A stretch of 24,028 nucleotides of DNA from the IMG/VR virus record IMGVR_UViG_3300044630_006828, positions 1 to 24,028 of that record. One strand, 5' to 3'. The notes below the pieces were generated by a model. It saw nothing but the letters and a program-made list of their open reading frames with translations, was not told the origin of the DNA and made no database searches. Numbering within the stretch: position 1 is the first letter of the stretch; every line of letters begins with the position of its first letter. Made by a program: the position numbers and the translations under genes. The DNA comes from a virus. Shown piece by piece: positions 10,423-22,807 of the stretch.

Positions 10423-12477
10423 ATGATTGAGTTAGGTGATGAAAACGAGAAAAGAAATAAAAAAAGTGAATCAGGTACACCAGTACTAGATAATTTTAGT
10501 AAAGACCTGTTGAAGTTGGCAGAACAGGGTAAATTGGATCCTGTAATTGGAAGAAAGTCTGAGATTTTACGAATTGCACAAATTCTATCAAGAAGAAAGA
10601 AAAATAATCCAATTATTATCGGTGAACCTGGGTCGGGAAAAACAGCAATAGTTGAGGGTCTCGCGATGTTGATAAAAGAGGGTGAGTGTCCCAAAAATCT
10701 TTTAGATAAAAGAATTCTTTCCTTGGATATTAATTCATTAGTTGCTGGTACCAAATATCGTGGTCAGTTTGAAGAAAGAATGAAAGTAATTATCGAGGAA
10801 CTTAATCAAAATCCTGATATTATAATTTTTATTGATGAGATTCACACCATGGTTGGAGCCGGAAATAGTTCTGGTTCTTTGGATGCCTCCAACATCTTAA
10901 AACCGGCACTCTCAAGAGGTGAAATTCAGTGTATTGGTGCAACAACACTTGACGAATATAGAAAACATTTTGAAAAGGATGGTGCTTTAGACAGGAGATT
11001 CCAAAAAATTATTGTAAGTCCATCCACTAAAGATGAAACATTTGAAATTTTGAAACAAAGTAAATTAAAATATGAAGATCATCATAAAGTCACATATGAT
11101 GATAATACTTTACGATTATTTGTTGAACTTGCGGATCGTTATATCACTGATCGAGAGTTTCCGGATAAAGCGTTCGATATCTTGGATGAGGTTGGTGCTA
11201 GAATGCAAATAGATATCAAACTTCCTGAGGTTATCGAAAATCTTAAACAAGAGGCATCCGACATCAAAAAACAAAAAATGGATGTCATCAAGAAACAAAA
11301 TTACGAACAAGCGGCGGAGTTACGTGATAGAGAAAGACAAGTTTTAGGTTTGTTGGATGAAGAAAAAAAGAAATTCGAACAACAACTTAAAAATAGTAAA
11401 AGACCTATCGGAGAGGAATTAGTCTATGAAGTAGTCTCCAATATGACTAAAATTCCGGTTTCTAAAATTAACCTGGATGAGAAAAAATCTTTAGTTGATC
11501 TTGATAAAAATTTAAATGGAAAAGTTATAGGTCAGGAAGATGCAGTAATTAAGATTACCAAATCCATCAGAAGAAATAGAATTGGTATAAAAGATCCAAA
11601 TAAACCAATTGGTTCTTTTATATTTTTAGGATCCACCGGTGTAGGTAAGACATTTTTAGCAAAACAACTTGCCAAAGAAATATTTGGAAGTGAGGAAAAT
11701 CTAATAAGAGTTGATATGAGTGAATATCAAGAAAAACATACTATTTCAAAGTTGATAGGATCACCACCAGGATATGTAGGTCATGACGAAGGCGGACAGT
11801 TAACAGAACAAGTTAAAAATAAACCTTATTCAGTAATTTTGTTTGACGAAATAGAAAAGGCACATAAAGACATTTTCTCAACTTTGTTACAAATATTAGA
11901 TGACGGACATGTAACCGATTCTTTGGGTAGGAAAATTAATTTCAAAAACACTATGATTATTATGACATCCAATATCGGTGTTAAAAAACTTCAAGATTTC
12001 GGAACGGGTGTTGGATTCAAAAGTTCGAATAGTGAGGCAGTGCAAGAAGAACATAGAAGAGATGTTCTTAAAAAAGAATTAAGTAAGTTCTTTGCCCCTG
12101 AATTTTTGAATAGAATTGATGACGTTGTTATTTTTAATTCGCTTAGAAAAGAACATATTGATGTTATTACTAAATTGGAGATCGATAAACTATTAGAAAG
12201 AGTGACTTCTAAAAATTACTTTTTCTCTTACGATCAAAATGTAATTGATTTAATATCTGAAGTGGGGTTTGATGAAACATTTGGTGCCAGACCCATCAAA
12301 CGAGCAATTCAAGATAAAATTGAAGATTTGATTTCAGAAAAAATCCTCACGGATGAAATTGTGGAAAATCAAGAATATGTTTTAGTTGTGGAGGGTGAAA
12401 AAGAAAATAGAAAAATTTCAGTCTTAACTAAAGAGATTCCTAAAACAACCAAAAAGAGGACATCAAAAATTAAATAA
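10423..12477 (+). CDS. clpC: ClpC-type AAA+ unfoldase without the N domain
   Basis: This hexameric ATP-driven unfoldase feeds proteins to ClpP. The first AAA+ module has Walker A GEPGSGKT (67-74), pore loop KYRG (111-114) and Walker B FIDE (136-139). A middle segment contains a UVR-like NYEQAAELRDRE (294-305), characteristic of ClpC rather than ClpA or ClpB. The second module has GSTGVGKT (404-411), pore loop GYVG (451-454), LFDE (474-477), arginine-finger region FLNRID (562-567) and sensor 2 GARPIKR. A VGF tripeptide (531-533) sits where ClpC carries its ClpP-docking loop, so it probably works with host ClpP. The normal about 150-residue Clp_N substrate/adaptor domain is absent; only a charged 20-residue tail precedes the ATPase. 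It is divergent from hsp20 and 2 bases from the convergent OmpA-like gene. Confidence 0.93.
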   Translation: MIELGDENEKRNKKSESGTPVLDNFSKDLLKLAEQGKLDPVIGRKSEILRIAQILSRRKKNNPIIIGEPGSGKTAIVEGLAMLIKEGECPKNLLDKRILSLDINSLVAGTKYRGQFEERMKVIIEELNQNPDIIIFIDEIHTMVGAGNSSGSLDASNILKPALSRGEIQCIGATTLDEYRKHFEKDGALDRRFQKIIVSPSTKDETFEILKQSKLKYEDHHKVTYDDNTLRLFVELADRYITDREFPDKAFDILDEVGARMQIDIKLPEVIENLKQEASDIKKQKMDVIKKQNYEQAAELRDRERQVLGLLDEEKKKFEQQLKNSKRPIGEELVYEVVSNMTKIPVSKINLDEKKSLVDLDKNLNGKVIGQEDAVIKITKSIRRNRIGIKDPNKPIGSFIFLGSTGVGKTFLAKQLAKEIFGSEENLIRVDMSEYQEKHTISKLIGSPPGYVGHDEGGQLTEQVKNKPYSVILFDEIEKAHKDIFSTLLQILDDGHVTDSLGRKINFKNTMIIMTSNIGVKKLQDFGTGVGFKSSNSEAVQEEHRRDVLKKELSKFFAPEFLNRIDDVVIFNSLRKEHIDVITKLEIDKLLERVTSKNYFFSYDQNVIDLISEVGFDETFGARPIKRAIQDKIEDLISEKILTDEIVENQEYVLVVEGEKENRKISVLTKEIPKTTKKRTSKIK

Positions 12478-13251: not shown

Positions 13252-14037
13252 TTAATGTTTAGAACATCCTAACTCCTCAATTATTTTTTTTCCGATAGAA
13301 ATTCCATTATAAGTGTCTTCTAACACAACGTATTCTTGTCTTGTGTGATACCGGTAGTATCCGATAGAAAGATTGAAACAGGATAATCCAAAGTTTTGAT
13401 TTAAAGGGAATATGTCAGTGTAAGGATGATATTGATATAGTGGATCACTAGGGAAATTTTCACAAATTAATCTATTCCCAACTTCAAAAAACTTACTTTC
13501 TCGATTAAACATTTTCTTTCCCATCAGGTATTCTGATATCATATTGTTTTCCGGTGCGTCAAATTGAATGCAGTACCCAACGTTTGAAAAAAATTCTGGG
13601 TCTGCCGCTTTAGAACCGTGACACCCGGTTTCTTCAGAAACAAAGAATGCCGATTTAACATTATCGAGTTCCAATAAAGAAACCATGCAGGCAAATACAC
13701 CACATTTATTATCACCACCAATACCTGTGGGATCACCCTTGTCATTAAGAGCCCTCCAGGATTTTTTCAGTTCACCCTGGGCGTTGGGTAACATTTCCTC
13801 AATAATATTAATTGGTTCAATGTTATGTACTGTATCGGTGTGTGCGATCACACAAGGAAAAAAATCAACGTCCTGGGAGGTTTGCTTTGTTGCATAGATG
13901 TTTTTCATCTTATCAACATAAAAAGGTATTTTATTTTCCTCTAACCAATCACAAATAAACTTAACAAGTAAATCTTCTTGATAAGTTTTTGAAGGTACTG
14001 AAAGTACACTTTTTAAAAGTTCTAAATTATTCATCAT
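13252..14037 (-). CDS. Compact M20/M42-type metallopeptidase (PepT-like)
   Basis: This is a predicted di-zinc amino- or tripeptidase. All expected metal and catalytic residues are visible in order: HTD (His-66, Asp-68), GGDNKCG (Asp-109), SEETG (Glu-135, Glu-136), FDAPENN (Asp-160) and a C-terminal YHTRQE (His-231). At 261 aa it is about 140 residues shorter than PepT and other M20 enzymes. The spacing shows that the inserted dimerisation/lid domain is missing, leaving only the catalytic core. Peptidases of this group finish degradation of peptides released by ATP-dependent proteases, which fits the neighbouring clpC-like gene and tmRNA. A host-type promoter lies 4 bases before the first ATG, back to back with the tmRNA promoter. 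Confidence 0.85.
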   Translation of the reverse strand: MMNNLELLKSVLSVPSKTYQEDLLVKFICDWLEENKIPFYVDKMKNIYATKQTSQDVDFFPCVIAHTDTVHNIEPINIIEEMLPNAQGELKKSWRALNDKGDPTGIGGDNKCGVFACMVSLLELDNVKSAFFVSEETGCHGSKAADPEFFSNVGYCIQFDAPENNMISEYLMGKKMFNRESKFFEVGNRLICENFPSDPLYQYHPYTDIFPLNQNFGLSCFNLSIGYYRYHTRQEYVVLEDTYNGISIGKKIIEELGCSKH

Positions 14038-14041
14038 GGTA

Positions 14042-14073
14042 CAAATTTACAACGTTTTATTTTATCTACCAAA
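14042..14073 (-). promoter_or_regulatory. Bacteroidetes-type promoter for the peptidase gene
   Basis: The sense strand has TTTG, exactly 20 bases, then TAAATTTG, matching the Bacteroidetes -33/-7 consensus TTTG/TAnnTTTG. The -7 box ends 4 bases before the ATG, implying a leaderless or nearly leaderless mRNA. Confidence 0.7.
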
Positions 14074-14076
14074 AAA

Positions 14077-14109
14077 TTTGACTCATTAAAAAAGTTTTTT
14101 TATATTTAT
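14077..14109 (+). promoter_or_regulatory. Promoter for tmRNA, host -33 box with phage TATTTAT
   Basis: TTTG (14077-14080), 20 bases, then TATATTTAT (14101-14109). The -33 box and spacing are host-like while the -7 box is the phage motif, so it looks like a hybrid. It precedes the mature tmRNA 5' end by 42 bases. Its -33 box is 3 bases from that of the divergent peptidase promoter. Confidence 0.6.
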
Positions 14110-14151
14110 GTCTGTAAATAGTTCATTGAAAACACACCGTACAAAATATAT

Positions 14152-14570
14152 GGGCCTATATTGGATTTGACGGGCGTTGGTTGGATTAAAGGAGCATGTC
14201 GGGTCTGAATTAAACTCGTTAAAAACTGATTCGAACAACAACTGGCAATGTGCTAAACAAAATGGAAACTCTTGGTTTACTAAGAGGTTCTGAAGTTACT
14301 GTAGCCTAATAGGTTTACGGAAACGGAGGGTCGATCAGACAGATACCTAGTAACAGAAGTCGTAGATGAGTTGGTTTTCACTCTAAAAGAAAACAACGGT
14401 CTCGTTCAGAGGGCTACCGTAACAAAAGTGAACTCGACACAGTTTTTGGTAACAATGTCAAAATAGGAACCAAATATTTTGGAAGATATGAAAAATCTTA
14501 ACCTAAACATGTAGTTGTCTTTTTGACAAAACGAGCCGGACGAGGGAGTCGGAGCCCTCTAGGTCCACCA
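14152..14570 (+). ncRNA. ssrA: tmRNA (SsrA)
   Basis: This RNA rescues stalled ribosomes and adds a degradation tag. The 5' GGGCCTA pairs with 3' TAGGTCC to give the 7-bp acceptor stem, including a G3-U pair, the alanine identity mark. It is followed by the typical TTGGATTTGACGGG. The T-arm GAGGGAGTCGGAGCCCTC (loop AGTCGGA) and an encoded CCA close the tRNA-like domain. The likely tag frame starts at GGC after an AACAACAACT context, as in Bacteroidetes tmRNAs. It reads GNVLNKME... to ...GSEVTVA and ends with tandem TAA TAG (21 codons). That is longer than the usual ALAA-ending tags of this phylum. A second frame (AKQNGNSW...) is possible but ends in charged residues and a single stop. Confidence 0.93.
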
Positions 14571-14574
14571 ATTG

Positions 14575-14606
14575 ATCCCATCATTTAATTATGGTGGGAT
14601 TTTTTA
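14575..14606 (+). terminator. Terminator of the tmRNA
   Basis: ATCCCATCAT pairs perfectly with ATGGTGGGAT (one G-T pair) and is followed by TTTTTT on the plus strand, 4 bases after the CCA end. Confidence 0.85.
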
Positions 14607-14813
14607 TTTATCCTTCATGTTAAAATTAAGAGTATGGTTGATTGTAACTGTTATTTGATTAGTATCGAAATGACGTATTTTACCATCTTCAAAAGAAGAA
14701 CATACCCATATGGTATTTCTATGTATCCCATAATCTATTATAAATAAAACCTGGGCTTCTCCAAAAGGTGTGTTCACTGTTATAACTTGTTGTACTTCAT
14801 GAATTGAGGTCAT
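14604..14813 (-). CDS. Small unknown protein, 69 aa
   Basis: No family is named with confidence, though the compact beta-rich core (GEAQVLFIIDYG, NTIWVCSSFEDGKIRHF) resembles small conserved proteins of T4-like marine phages. The frame runs on to a GTG at 14867. The ATG at 14813 is preferred because a TATTTAT motif ends 4 bases before it and the upstream extension overlaps the neighbouring gene's promoter. It is transcribed toward the tmRNA terminator and is divergent from the transferase-like gene. Confidence 0.72.
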   Translation of the reverse strand: MTSIHEVQQVITVNTPFGEAQVLFIIDYGIHRNTIWVCSSFEDGKIRHFDTNQITVTINHTLNFNMKDK

Positions 14814-14817
14814 ATTG

Positions 14818-14824
14818 ATAAATA
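14818..14824 (-). promoter_or_regulatory. TATTTAT phage promoter motif before the 69-aa gene
   Basis: The sense strand reads CATATTTATCAATATG; 4 bases separate the motif from the ATG. Confidence 0.5.
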
Positions 14825-14853
14825 TGAATATTATAAAATTATCACAGGTTAAA

Positions 14854-14860
14854 TATTTAT
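14854..14860 (+). promoter_or_regulatory. TATTTAT phage promoter motif before the transferase-like gene
   Basis: The sense strand reads AAATATTTATGATTCACAT then ATG; 9 bases separate the motif from the start. It lies 29 bases from the divergent copy at 14818-14824. Confidence 0.5.
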
Positions 14861-14869
14861 GATTCACAT

Positions 14870-15538
14870 ATGAAAATATATTTCGATCATATTAATGGTT
14901 TTGGTAAAATAAGTGATTTCGAGGTAATAGTTAACTGTGCCTATGGAATTCAAGAAAAAGAAGATAACCCATCCGAGTTGATGAATCAAGGGTGGATTCC
15001 CTGGAAAGATAGATGGTATAATGAAAGAAGTACAAGAATAAATCTTACAAACTATAAACCAAGTAAAACGACAAAAAGACTGTCAAATAAAATTACTACC
15101 AGAAAAGGAGACATAAAAAAATATATAGAGATTTACAAGGAAATTCATCAAAAATACTCCACTCATAAATCATTTCAGAGAAATATAAGTCTTGATACAT
15201 TTTTAGATTGTGAGATAATAGAATATTGGAAAGATAATCTTATTGCTCTGTCTATTTATAAAATGATCGGAAAGGATATGATTGCATATCAATTTATTTG
15301 GGACTATGAAGATCCAAAATTGTCTATGGGAAATGTTGCTCAGATGTTTGAGTGTGAACAAGCAAGGTTAAATCAATGTGACTATGTTTACCTTATGGGT
15401 GGATATGAAAAATGTTGTGAATACAAATCGGAATTTTCTGGATTTGAGTTTTGGACTGGTCTTGAATGGTCTTCCGATGTTGACTTATATAAAAATCTTA
15501 TAAGTCGAGATCAAAAAGTTATAATACAAAATATATAA
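14870..15538 (+). CDS. Arginyl/leucyl-tRNA-protein transferase-like (ATE/Bpt) protein
   Basis: The C-terminal half resembles the GNAT-fold domain of ATE1/Bpt enzymes, which move Arg or Leu from tRNA onto protein N-termini to create N-degrons. The order matches: LIALSIYK (124-131), a YQFIWDYEDPKLSMG strand-loop (140-154, family form YxFxDPxxxxxSLG), EQARLNQCDYVYLMGGY (163-179, family LGxxYVYLGYW), then EYKSEFSGFEFWTGLEW (184-200, family YKxxFxPxE...W). The N-terminal part has GWIPWKDRWYNERSTRINL (41-59) and YKPSKTTKRL, corresponding to the ATE_N region. However, the CxxC...CC cluster that binds Fe-S or heme in cellular ATE is missing. At 222 aa it is close to Bpt length. It follows the tmRNA locus. 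Transfer activity and the donor tRNA are unproven. Confidence 0.62.
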   Translation: MKIYFDHINGFGKISDFEVIVNCAYGIQEKEDNPSELMNQGWIPWKDRWYNERSTRINLTNYKPSKTTKRLSNKITTRKGDIKKYIEIYKEIHQKYSTHKSFQRNISLDTFLDCEIIEYWKDNLIALSIYKMIGKDMIAYQFIWDYEDPKLSMGNVAQMFECEQARLNQCDYVYLMGGYEKCCEYKSEFSGFEFWTGLEWSSDVDLYKNLISRDQKVIIQNI

Positions 15539-15559
15539 AAAAAGGGACAGACTGTCCCT
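15537..15559 (-). terminator. Terminator of the large structured RNA
   Basis: On the minus strand AGGGACA-gtc-TGTCCCT is followed by seven T. The stem is perfect (7 bp). It starts one base from the stop of the convergent plus-strand gene and marks the 3' end of a minus-strand transcript that contains no ORF. Confidence 0.85.
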
Positions 15560-16520
15560 AATATTTTACCGGTGGCTCCATTAAAAGAAACGCTGAGATT
15601 ACACGTTTTTGTGAGAACCTTTAGAGTCATTATTGTTTCTACTCTTATCCACTTCCTTTTGGAAAGTATTTCTCAGTGACGGTCTTTTAGGTTTACCACT
15701 CCTTAAGGTTTGAATTACTCTCATCCTAATCTACTCTTTTCGAGGATGCCTCCCCAACTCGTCCTTGCGGGACTAAAGGTTTTTCGGATAATTACACTCA
15801 GACTTGGGATCTTTGTGTGCAATGAACGGCTCATTACTATGTAGTCACCTTTCATCCAAACCTGACGGACACTTTTCCTTATTTTTTATTAATTATTGGA
15901 ATAATCAACTTCCATAAGTTTTGTGTTGTGGATTGTGAAAGTAGTGGTCCGCCAACCAAGCCAACCCATCTTTTGAACGAGTCGATACTCAACTACTCTC
16001 TGAAATGTCCCCATTTCCATATTTTTAGACTACTTCGAAACAAATCTTTTGGTAAAGATTCATTAAGGTTCATAACAGCACCACCTGTACATAAACATAC
16101 CTTTCGGTTTTAAGTATCCTATAATATTGGAATCCGTAATTATAAAGTTGGATAACTCTATTTCTTACATAATTCCTACGGGTTATTCCTATCGGTGTTC
16201 CCACCTCAACTAGACGACCCACATCGCCCAATCGTCAAACCACTTTCCTTACAGCGTTGCCCTCAGTACTAAAGGTTTAACGGTATCCCGCTTGCATACT
16301 CGACCTCGAATGTCCGAAGACAAACAAGACGCAAACCAGTTACACTTCTGATTCACTTTATCCCACTTTCGTGGTTTATTTATTGACCATATGCGGCCAA
16401 ATATCTTTATTACTCAAAGGAGAGAATTACATCTCTATTATCGGTCAAATAATCTGACCGGACTTTTTTGTAAAAGGATAATTCAATTTTTCAAAGAACT
16501 TTTCGGACGTTTCCGAACTG
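15541..16520 (-). ncRNA. Candidate giant structured RNA (GOLLD/ROOL-like or new class), about 1 kb
   Basis: About 1,030 bases lack any credible gene yet end in a clean minus-strand terminator. Minus-strand hairpins include CCAC-GAAA-GTGG (16363-16374), GGTG-GGAA-CACC (16194-16205), GAAATG-GGGA-CATTTC (16002-16017) and TGTC-TTCG-GACA (16311-16322). Others are AATCTTT/AAAGATT (16043-16060), CGGTCA/TGACCG (16442-16460), AGAGA/TCTCT (16421-16436), GACGA/TCGTC (16213-16236) and GTCC-CGCAA-GGAC. GNRA loops appear only on this strand, which fixes the direction. The 5' end is not defined; ATACTTAT at 16525-16532 is a one-mismatch relative of the phage promoter motif. Size, phage context and closeness to tmRNA fit the known GOLLD/ROOL giant RNAs; I cannot confirm a family. 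RNase P hallmarks were not found. Confidence 0.68.
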
Positions 16521-16524
16521 TTTG

Positions 16525-16532
16525 ATAAGTAT
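16525..16532 (-). promoter_or_regulatory. Possible promoter of the large RNA
   Basis: ATACTTAT in sense direction differs by one base from ATATTTAT and lies about 65 bases before the first strong hairpin. It is weak and has no -33 box. Confidence 0.25.
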
Positions 16533-16575
16533 ACGAGTAACATTTGAAAAAGTCAACTCGAAACGAAAATTTTTT

Positions 16576-16722
16576 TTAAAAACTTTCAACGTAAACTTTA
16601 TCGGTCCCAAAAAAGTTTGCTCTTTCCCGTGCAAAACCTAAATTTGGGGTATAAAATTTAAGACCTCTCTCATTAAAGTAATAATAAATTTCAATTTTTT
16701 CGACTGTGATTTCTTCTGTCAT
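16576..16722 (-). CDS. Small unknown protein, 48 aa
   Basis: A short ORF with its own promoter encodes 48 residues beginning MTEEITVEKIEIYYYF and ending DKVYVESF. It is acidic at the front, aromatic-rich and apparently a small beta/alpha fold. No family is recognised. A full host-type promoter (TTTG-N20-TAATTTTG) lies 23 bases upstream of its ATG, strong support that it is real. It sits between the endolysin gene and the start of the large structured RNA, and could share its transcript. Confidence 0.7.
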   Translation of the reverse strand: MTEEITVEKIEIYYYFNERGLKFYTPNLGFARERANFFGTDKVYVESF

Positions 16723-16745
16723 AGTTTCTATTAATTAATTTGATA

Positions 16746-16777
16746 CAAAATTAGGTAAATTTAAATTAAAAAACAAA
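16746..16777 (-). promoter_or_regulatory. Bacteroidetes-type promoter for the 48-aa gene
   Basis: Sense strand TTTG, 20 bases, TAATTTTG, located between the endolysin stop and the 48-aa ORF. This could also drive read-through into the large RNA region. Confidence 0.65.
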
Positions 16778-16782
16778 TTTTT

Positions 16783-17931
16783 TTATAAAATTTTTGAAAA
16801 AATATCCAGAATTCTATTTTTTTCTTCTGAAATTTTTTTGTTGGGATACATTGTGGCGTTCTGTTTGTTTAATTCTGCCTCAATATCATCAAGTTTTTTA
16901 GTTCCGGTTGAAAAAAAATCTTCTAATGCCTTTTTTATTTTTTCTTTATCAACTTTTACTACATTGAACTCTACTTGTTCTGGTGCTTCTTCTTCTGAAG
17001 GTACTTCTGGAGCATTCTTGATATTACCCTCCTTATCCATAAATTCAAAAATATCTTTTCCTTGATCCGTTCCTATGTGTACGTGGCTTGAACTTGGATA
17101 GGAAGGCCACTCTGTTATTTTCCCAATGAAATCACCAGGTTTTACTTTGTCTCCGGGTTCTAACTTTACAGAATCCAAATGTGTGTAAAAAACACTTGGA
17201 TCACCATTTTCACCAGAAATGGACAACTGAGTCCCGAAAATATTTTTTTTCTTTTTACTAGATTCGTGTTTTTTTGCCACTTTTCCATGTGTCAAAGAAT
17301 AAACTGAAGTGCCTATTGGTGCTTGTATATCCCAAGCATGTCTGGATGACCAATCTGGTGTGGATCTTTTGGCATGATCACTTGGTGTTGATATAATTTT
17401 TATTGGGTTTCCTCCAGAAAAAAAAGTCTTAGATTCCATTTTTGGAACTTTTTTCTTTTGTGCTACGGTCATTGTGACTGTCTCTTTATTACCGATTTCA
17501 CCACTTACTATTTCCGCCCCAGATAGATATTTCTCAGGATTTACCCAATTTCCAGATTCTGATTTTCTAATTTCAAAATGTAAATGTGGCCCAGTTGACT
17601 TACCACCACCACCTTCTAAACCTTGTCCACCACCAGATTCGGCAATTTTTTGACCCTGTTTAACTTTATCACCCACATCAACAAGTCTTTGAGTTAAATG
17701 TGCGTAGGCTGAATAGAAATTTTCTCCATCAACATTATGTTTGATTATTATAAAATTACCATAACCACGTTTATTTCTCATGTCGGATCTAACAACTTCA
17801 CCATCTGCAACTGAAATCACATCAGAACCATCAGGTATGGCAATGTCAATACCATTATGATGTTTTCCCCATCTAGGACCAAATCCAGAGGTCTTAGTTC
17901 CTTTTTTAGATAATGGATAAACTAATTTCAT
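16783..17931 (-). CDS. Tandem M23 (LytM) peptidase, probable endolysin
   Basis: This is a zinc endopeptidase predicted to cut peptidoglycan cross-bridges. The first M23 domain (about 1-135) has HNGID (His-25, Asp-29), AHL (His-78) and HLHFE (His-116, His-118), a complete active site. A second M23-like domain (about 170-300) has the P-x-G-T-S-V-Y strand, YTHLD (His-251) and HVH (283-285). Its first motif reads RHAWD, with His-to-Asp spacing one shorter than usual, so its zinc site may use His-186 or be degenerate. The C-terminus ends with a helix containing KISEEKNRILDIF, shared with other phage proteins here. There is no signal peptide; export would rely on the holin, or it acts in the virion. 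It starts 2 bases after the previous gene's stop. Confidence 0.9.
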   Translation of the reverse strand: MKLVYPLSKKGTKTSGFGPRWGKHHNGIDIAIPDGSDVISVADGEVVRSDMRNKRGYGNFIIIKHNVDGENFYSAYAHLTQRLVDVGDKVKQGQKIAESGGGQGLEGGGGKSTGPHLHFEIRKSESGNWVNPEKYLSGAEIVSGEIGNKETVTMTVAQKKKVPKMESKTFFSGGNPIKIISTPSDHAKRSTPDWSSRHAWDIQAPIGTSVYSLTHGKVAKKHESSKKKKNIFGTQLSISGENGDPSVFYTHLDSVKLEPGDKVKPGDFIGKITEWPSYPSSSHVHIGTDQGKDIFEFMDKEGNIKNAPEVPSEEEAPEQVEFNVVKVDKEKIKKALEDFFSTGTKKLDDIEAELNKQNATMYPNKKISEEKNRILDIFSKIL

Positions 17932-22734: not shown

Positions 22735-22807
22735 TATCCCTATCAGGGCTCGAACCTGAATGATTTCTTTAGAAGAGAAATATGTTATCCAGTTACATCA
22801 TAGGGAC
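22735..22807 (-). tRNA. tRNA-Arg(UCU)
   Basis: Reads arginine AGA (and AGG by wobble). Acceptor GTCCCTA/TAGGGAT pairs over 7 bp (first pair G-T), discriminator A, no encoded CCA. The D-stem is ATGT/ACAT with loop AACTGGATA. The anticodon stem TTTCT/AGAAA encloses CTTCTAA with anticodon TCT. The T-arm is TCAGG-TTCGAGC-CCTGA. All arms are canonical. It lies between the glycosyltransferase gene and a 32-aa ORF. AGA is the main Arg codon in AT-rich phage genes, so it probably supports phage translation. Confidence 0.93.

Follow-up and report, generated by a model that had tools for sequence, protein, structure and literature searches.

The closest described relative of the RNA considered here is GOLLD env-38, an 833-nt RNA whose structure is a hollow 14-chain cage of D7 symmetry (Kretsch et al. 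2025, PMC12286853). As far as the consulted sections of that paper go, the 5' domain forms the cap half of the cage and carries a conserved GAAA loop (L11a), the linker is disordered inside the cage, and two of the features described are a kissing pair of L20 with J13/15 (bridge B7) and an L21a loop, self-complementary and alternating between GC and CG (bridge B8). A ribosome pull-down is also cited there in connection with GOLLD, and the parts consulted of PMC6582537 and PMC9569102 place mycobacterial GOLLD in tRNA clusters. Phage-encoded tmRNA has been noted in huge phages (PMC7162821), and PMC5643018 employs tmRNA as an expression control, again from the sections consulted. The word tmRNA is absent from the main text of PMC12286853 in a text search, and within the parts of the literature on GOLLD, ROOL, RNA nanocages and tmRNA that were searched we found no report of the two RNAs being paired; within that literature the convergent GOLLD-tmRNA pair described below is unreported.

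We analysed a stretch of viral DNA of 24,028 nucleotides (IMG/VR record IMGVR_UViG_3300044630_006828, positions 1 to 24,028; hereafter the window), in which the minus strand from 16521 to 15543 is, with near certainty, a GOLLD RNA. The family was already known, and the window adds one well-preserved copy. An Rfam search at curated thresholds matched RF02032 (GOLLD) on the minus strand at 15590-16000 with 317.5 bits against a cut-off of 150 (E 1.6e-90), the match spanning model positions 1-416 of 416 with neither end truncated. Across the whole window this search gave three matches, namely GOLLD, tmRNA (RF00023) and one tRNA. A first-pass annotation had proposed a giant structured RNA at 15541-16520 beside a tmRNA locus, and had suggested comparing it by Infernal with the GOLLD, ROOL, OLE, HEARO and RNase P models. 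The RNA proved real, with size and strand in agreement and coordinates nearly exact, and the neighbouring tmRNA was recovered as well. ROOL, OLE, HEARO, RNase P and introns were matched neither at curated scores in the window nor at E values up to 1 within 14000-16800, where the sole extra row was a Qrr match far under its own cut-off. Of the identities that had been offered, a giant phage RNA of the GOLLD or ROOL sort thus stands in its GOLLD form, and because the full RF02032 model is matched at twice the gathering score, neither a divergent member nor a new class is supported.

Features of the window discussed in the text (coordinates on the window; strand and basis of each assignment as available)
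Feature	Position	Strand	Basis or remark
ClpA/C-type unfoldase	10423..12477	+	AAA_2 E 3.6e-69, phrog_4871 E 9.6e-235; in block shared beyond tmRNA
tmRNA gene, convergent with GOLLD	14152..14570	+	RF00023, 74 bits, cut-off 47
Putative aminoacyl-tRNA-protein transferase (ATE_C), between tmRNA and GOLLD	14870..15538	+	PF04377, E 4.2e-9, 37.5 bits, cut-off 25
Full GOLLD transcript, inferred, about 979 nt	15543..16521	-	Promoter and terminator placement; homologues alignable across span
Intrinsic terminator of GOLLD, with T run	15543..15559	-	Sequence scan
3' domain, RF02032	15590..16000	-	317.5 bits, full model
Variable linker	15879..15922	-	26-50 nt across 90 sequences
5' domain, about 521 nt	16001..16521	-	Carried by 135 of the 156 sufficiently flanked loci, among the matches listed
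GNRA loop GAAA	16108-16099	-	GAAA in 80 of 90 sequences
GNRA loop GGAA	16205-16194	-	GGAA 87, GGGA 3 of 90
cUUCGg hairpin	16321-16312	-	UUCG 9, CUUCGG 6 of 90, mostly something else
GNRA loop GAAA	16374-16363	-	Kept in 90 of 90 non-redundant sequences
Promoter-like pair TTGACT-17-TATACT, sigma-70-like	16528..16556	-	Consensus scan; ends 7 nt before inferred RNA start
tRNA (tRNA-Arg)	22735-22807		Only tRNA found in window; 6.2 kb from GOLLD

The stretch had been described as gene-free, in keeping with a single ORF of at least 60 aa inside it, one of 61 aa; a coding gene at 15541-16520 was rejected on this ground. Folding of 15541-16520 showed the signal to be restricted to the minus strand, as anticipated, with -272.3 kcal/mol against a shuffle mean of -233.4 (n=20; z -4.4; none of the 20 shuffles as good) compared with z -0.5 on the plus strand, where 8 of 20 shuffles were as good. 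The three GNRA loops, the cUUCGg hairpin and the terminator that had been listed were all located on the minus strand. Among them the UUCG loop is seldom kept in the 90 aligned sequences, and is therefore no family feature. Promoter-like sites exceed chance only slightly in the scanned 3 kb (16 against 11.6), so that the argument for a dedicated promoter is carried by position and recurrence: of the 90 sequences (window included), 59 have a looser promoter pair immediately before the aligned start, compared with 9 of 87 for a control stretch taken farther upstream. From the placement of promoter and terminator we infer an RNA running from 16521 to about 15543, or 979 nt. GOLLD RNAs are recognised by a size above 800 nt and a less conserved 5' domain preceding the 3' domain, and both are found here with the inferred ends. 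A rise in expression as lysis approaches is a further mark of the family. The segment at 15879-15922 presumably represents the published GOLLD linker.

Homologues were collected with two distinct exact-match patterns from the 3' domain, which fetched 98 and then at least 92 further viral records (at least 190 in total), giving 191 3'-domain loci with the window; Rfam confirmation of GOLLD covers 20 of the 190 pattern records (7 and 13 tested, all 20 confirmed). Sufficient flanking sequence was available at 156 of the 191 loci, window included. Both domains were carried by 135 of these, and the 21 lacking a 5' domain were dropped; clustering at 97% left 90 sequences including the window, to which the other 89 are 65-87% identical. 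The second pattern gave no hits in cellular genomes; as the pattern is exact, this is no evidence of GOLLD being absent from prophages. Two loci, L129 and L181, sit on very long branches of the GOLLD tree and may be divergent or false matches.

Over the 90 sequences, an RNAalifold consensus comprised 246 base pairs with 95.3% of cells canonical. A lack of covariation among homologues had been named beforehand as grounds for abandoning the RNA, and the opposite was found: at least two double changes occur in 156 of the 246 pairs, compared with 41-68 in six slid controls, and sliding the 3' partners by 1-3 positions lowers the canonical share to 37-44%. As the consensus structure derives from the same alignment, it is favoured over its slid versions in these comparisons; a mutual-information scan free of any structural assumption likewise puts canonical pairs at the head of its ranking, with 40 among the top 50. 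Both halves of the molecule contribute, with 136 pairs in the 5' domain (94% canonical; two or more double changes in 90) and 102 pairs in the 3' domain (97% canonical). The helix 24-31/816-823 contains no pair with double changes and was not relied on. The two-domain fold is thus supported by covariation.

We also examined positions that may correspond to contacts between chains in the published cage, using a numbering (p) that runs from 16521 downwards. From their positions in the Rfam model, we infer that p644 and p645 with p716 and p715 represent the L20-J13/15 contact (B7), that the loop at p753-757 represents L21a (B8), and that the GAAA loop at 16374-16363 represents L11a. The p644-p716 pair is G-C in all 90 sequences, and its neighbour p645-p715, joining linker and loop, is G-C in 58, C-G in 31 and U-C in one. 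The p753-757 loop reads CGCAA in 77 sequences (window included), GUCGA in 10 and CAUAA in two, and is missing from one; each form contains GC, CG or AU, the CG form lying one alignment column off. The AU form (2 of 90) retains a self-complementary dinucleotide and represents a variant beyond the GC and CG given in the consulted parts of PMC12286853. Both mapped inter-chain sites are therefore kept, and vary in a pairing-compatible fashion. Covariation in the 5' domain and at the mapped contacts of this full-length alignment (90 sequences, window included) supports cage formation across the aligned set, and the product is probably a closed 14-chain RNA cage, judging by homology.

Two other accounts of the RNA itself were weighed against an intact GOLLD. 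That it might represent a giant RNA class unrelated to GOLLD draws on the Rfam model being limited to the 3' domain, which leaves the 5' half outside it; we consider this reading practically negligible, given that the 3' domain matches RF02032 at full strength, that the same 5' domain recurs in the 135 of 156 loci fetched by 3'-domain pattern (window included, among the matches listed), and that part of the 5' domain aligns with the sequence directly preceding RF02032 in two huge phages. A decayed, non-functional relic of GOLLD, for which no supporting point was found, is scarcely tenable against the 244 of 246 consensus pairs that remain canonical in the window, the full-length model match, and the presence of both a promoter-like site and a terminator.

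The tmRNA of the window lies downstream of GOLLD on the opposite strand, with 972 bp, one gene and a terminator between them. It was not called by ARAGORN on the window, and it ends in ACCA. Among the tmRNAs of 82 loci, window included, 79 have G3-U70 and 61 end in CCA. An open tag frame of 21 residues, GNVLNKMETLGLLRGSEVTVA, ending VTVA, can be read in the window tmRNA (our own reading of the frame); among eight other loci in which the frame was read, it is nearly the same in seven related ones and recognisable in the distant L114.

The pairing of GOLLD with tmRNA recurs widely. Among the matches listed, 96 of 190 GOLLD-pattern records carry a tmRNA; in 94 of them it lies downstream of GOLLD and in 91 on the opposite strand. 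The other 94 records show none that passes the cut-off. In the first set, 57 of 98 records had a tmRNA over the cut-off, always on the opposite strand (57 of 57), downstream in 56 and within 5 kb in 55. The second set, among the matches listed, gave 39 of 92, with 38 downstream, 34 opposite, and 32 both opposite and within 5 kb. Where first-set records longer than 40 kb held both RNAs, 23 of 30 had them within 3 kb, compared with 1.9 expected under uniform placing. At least 5 kb of downstream sequence was available in 22 of the 41 tmRNA-less records of the first set and, among the matches listed, in 32 of the 53 of the second. Redundancy was reduced by clustering the 3' domains at 95% (179 of 191 used, 12 dropped), which gave 99 groups, 15 of them unjudged for short downstream sequence. 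The 84 judged groups, among the matches listed, comprise 53 convergent, 3 same-strand, 1 far and 27 without tmRNA. On a quick GOLLD tree with several long branches these states need 16 changes.

A second layout, in which the tmRNA lies downstream on the same strand at 1.6-2.5 kb, was found in L107, L114, L153, L154 and L175, or 5 of the 39 tmRNA records of the second set among the matches listed; L107, L114 and L154 group together on the tree. Neighbouring tRNAs were also recorded: 50 of 191 loci, among the matches listed, have one within 2 kb of the GOLLD ends, as do 13 of the 82 loci with tmRNA. In L002, L049 and L091, which have no tmRNA over the cut-off, a tRNA lies about 560 nt before the 3' domain, and hence at or just upstream of the GOLLD 5' end. 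The GOLLD of the window retrieved ten GenBank records, of which four were examined. These come from two Acinetobacter phages and two huge phages lacking annotation; in each, GOLLD has tRNAs close by and no tmRNA reaches the cut-off. Under stricter filters, GOLLD was absent from the huge-phage record LR756508, in which two tmRNA matches passed the cut-off, and neither RNA was seen in a Flavobacterium phage or a Microcystis phage.

A further set was selected by terminase, from which 35 of the best 80 of 395 relatives were searched, nearly all of them contigs above 20 kb; no dereplication was applied, and the pattern sets share 13 of the 35 records. GOLLD was identified in 19 of the 35, all 19 with a convergent tmRNA. 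Three records contain the tmRNA alone, 0.1-0.8 kb from the contig end on the expected GOLLD side, and 13 contain neither RNA. A rule by which phages would hold both RNAs or neither was dropped, since these 13 offer at most 0.5-10.6 kb of room each, compared with a GOLLD-terminase distance of 9.1-13.8 kb in the 12 measured of the 19 positive records.

By portal and terminase the phage is T4-like; in GenBank its portal is closest, at 38-39% identity, to those of Flavobacterium phages, a Microcystis phage and an uncultured phage. Between the portal and terminase genes, low-complexity ORFs (GVGVG / PTPTP) overlap on both strands at 2523-2842. The gene separating tmRNA from GOLLD encodes a putative aminoacyl-tRNA-protein transferase; enzymes of this type tag protein N-termini for degradation. 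A search of PDB sequences up to E 0.01 and a tblastn search of the phage collection at E 0.001 both left its ORF without a match, and a single-sequence fold prediction gave a mean pLDDT of 33. Within the first set the transferase occurs in 1 of 98 GOLLD records, a 187-kb contig from the same phage as the window, on which the M23 peptidase and terminase of the window recur at 100%; as a general partner of GOLLD it was rejected on this count. The transferase gene lies 2.4 kb from the Clp unfoldase gene, so that an unfoldase and two routes of protein tagging share one stretch.

Taken together, these findings are best explained as a whole by an intact GOLLD gene of a T4-like phage, encoding a non-coding RNA of about 979 nt that would form a 14-chain cage, a reading to which we assign a probability of about 0.85. 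Judging from sequence signals, transcription would start at a dedicated promoter (16556-16528, minus) and stop at the terminator at 15559-15543; the RNA would fold into the covariation-supported 5' and 3' domains, and then, by homology, assemble without protein into the closed hollow cage. The cage may serve the takeover of translation by the phage, holding or docking ribosomes, tRNAs or the tmRNA machinery. Such a translation-linked role is suggested by the tRNA neighbourhoods of the family, the ribosome pull-down cited in the consulted parts of PMC12286853, and the tmRNA pairing found here; it is the most likely function, held tentatively and at somewhat under even odds. A narrower version, in which GOLLD and the phage tmRNA would form one working unit, the cage handling ribosomes or tmRNA complexes made by a phage rescue system to which an N-terminal tagging enzyme and a Clp unfoldase would have been added in this phage, strikes us as unlikely.

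The tmRNA neighbourhood could also be without functional meaning if a single large phage lineage has simply inherited the order Clp unfoldase, peptidase, tmRNA, variable genes, GOLLD. At least one of three protein families on the tmRNA side (Clp unfoldase, peptidase and a small protein) recurs in 61 of 82 tmRNA loci, with 48 occurrences of the unfoldase family alone in the 4 kb that follow the tmRNA on that side, and 17 of the other 21 loci hold at most 1.1 kb there, which makes shared descent a serious rival. The GenBank records with tRNAs rather than tmRNA near GOLLD point the same way. Against this, the gap between the RNAs varies from about 65 to 5578 bp among loci with both, with different gene families inserted and orientation mostly kept; on starred branches of the quick, partly long-branched GOLLD tree, no fewer than 12 changes are required for the convergent state; and the same-strand layout exists. 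On balance, shared descent is slightly favoured as an account of the neighbourhood, may explain the tmRNA pairing, and represents the main alternative to a functional link. An interaction of the two RNAs through convergent transcription or antisense pairing would fit their opposite strands in 91 of 96 records (among the matches listed), a distance between the genes estimated at 65-130 bp for 25 of 82 loci, and a predicted duplex of the window GOLLD with its own tmRNA that beats those with 8 of 8 other tmRNAs. Conversely, the window pair is separated by a gene and a terminator, and over 37 pairs the predicted duplexes show no excess of GOLLD-tmRNA base-pairing (own duplex -172.1 compared with -169.9 kcal/mol for eight random others, own better in 0.55 of comparisons), which leaves this interaction highly improbable. 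For a GOLLD cage whose structure is solved, a convergent tmRNA in about half of the viral records examined provides a concrete hypothesis, that the cage works with ribosome rescue. The recurrent convergent tmRNA may hint at the function of an RNA cage and offers a testable lead.

Compared with known systems, the window RNA resembles GOLLD env-38, as described in the consulted parts of PMC12286853, in its two-domain layout, its 5'-domain GAAA loop, its phage origin and a 3' domain that is a full-length RF02032 match, and, by position-based mapping onto B7 and B8, in a loop-linker pair that covaries and a self-complementary dinucleotide within a loop. It differs in length (about 979 nt compared with 833 nt) and in that its near RNA neighbour is a tmRNA, the sole tRNA found lying 6.2 kb away. 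ROOL, according to the same sections, is likewise giant, phage-encoded and cage-forming, the cage of the window RNA being predicted by homology, whereas the ROOL Rfam model finds no match in the window. Finally, the window tmRNA is akin to the phage tmRNAs of PMC7162821, in the sections consulted, in being a full-length match with an Ala-type G3-U70 acceptor, and is set apart from them by its convergence with GOLLD and its own VTVA-ending tag frame.
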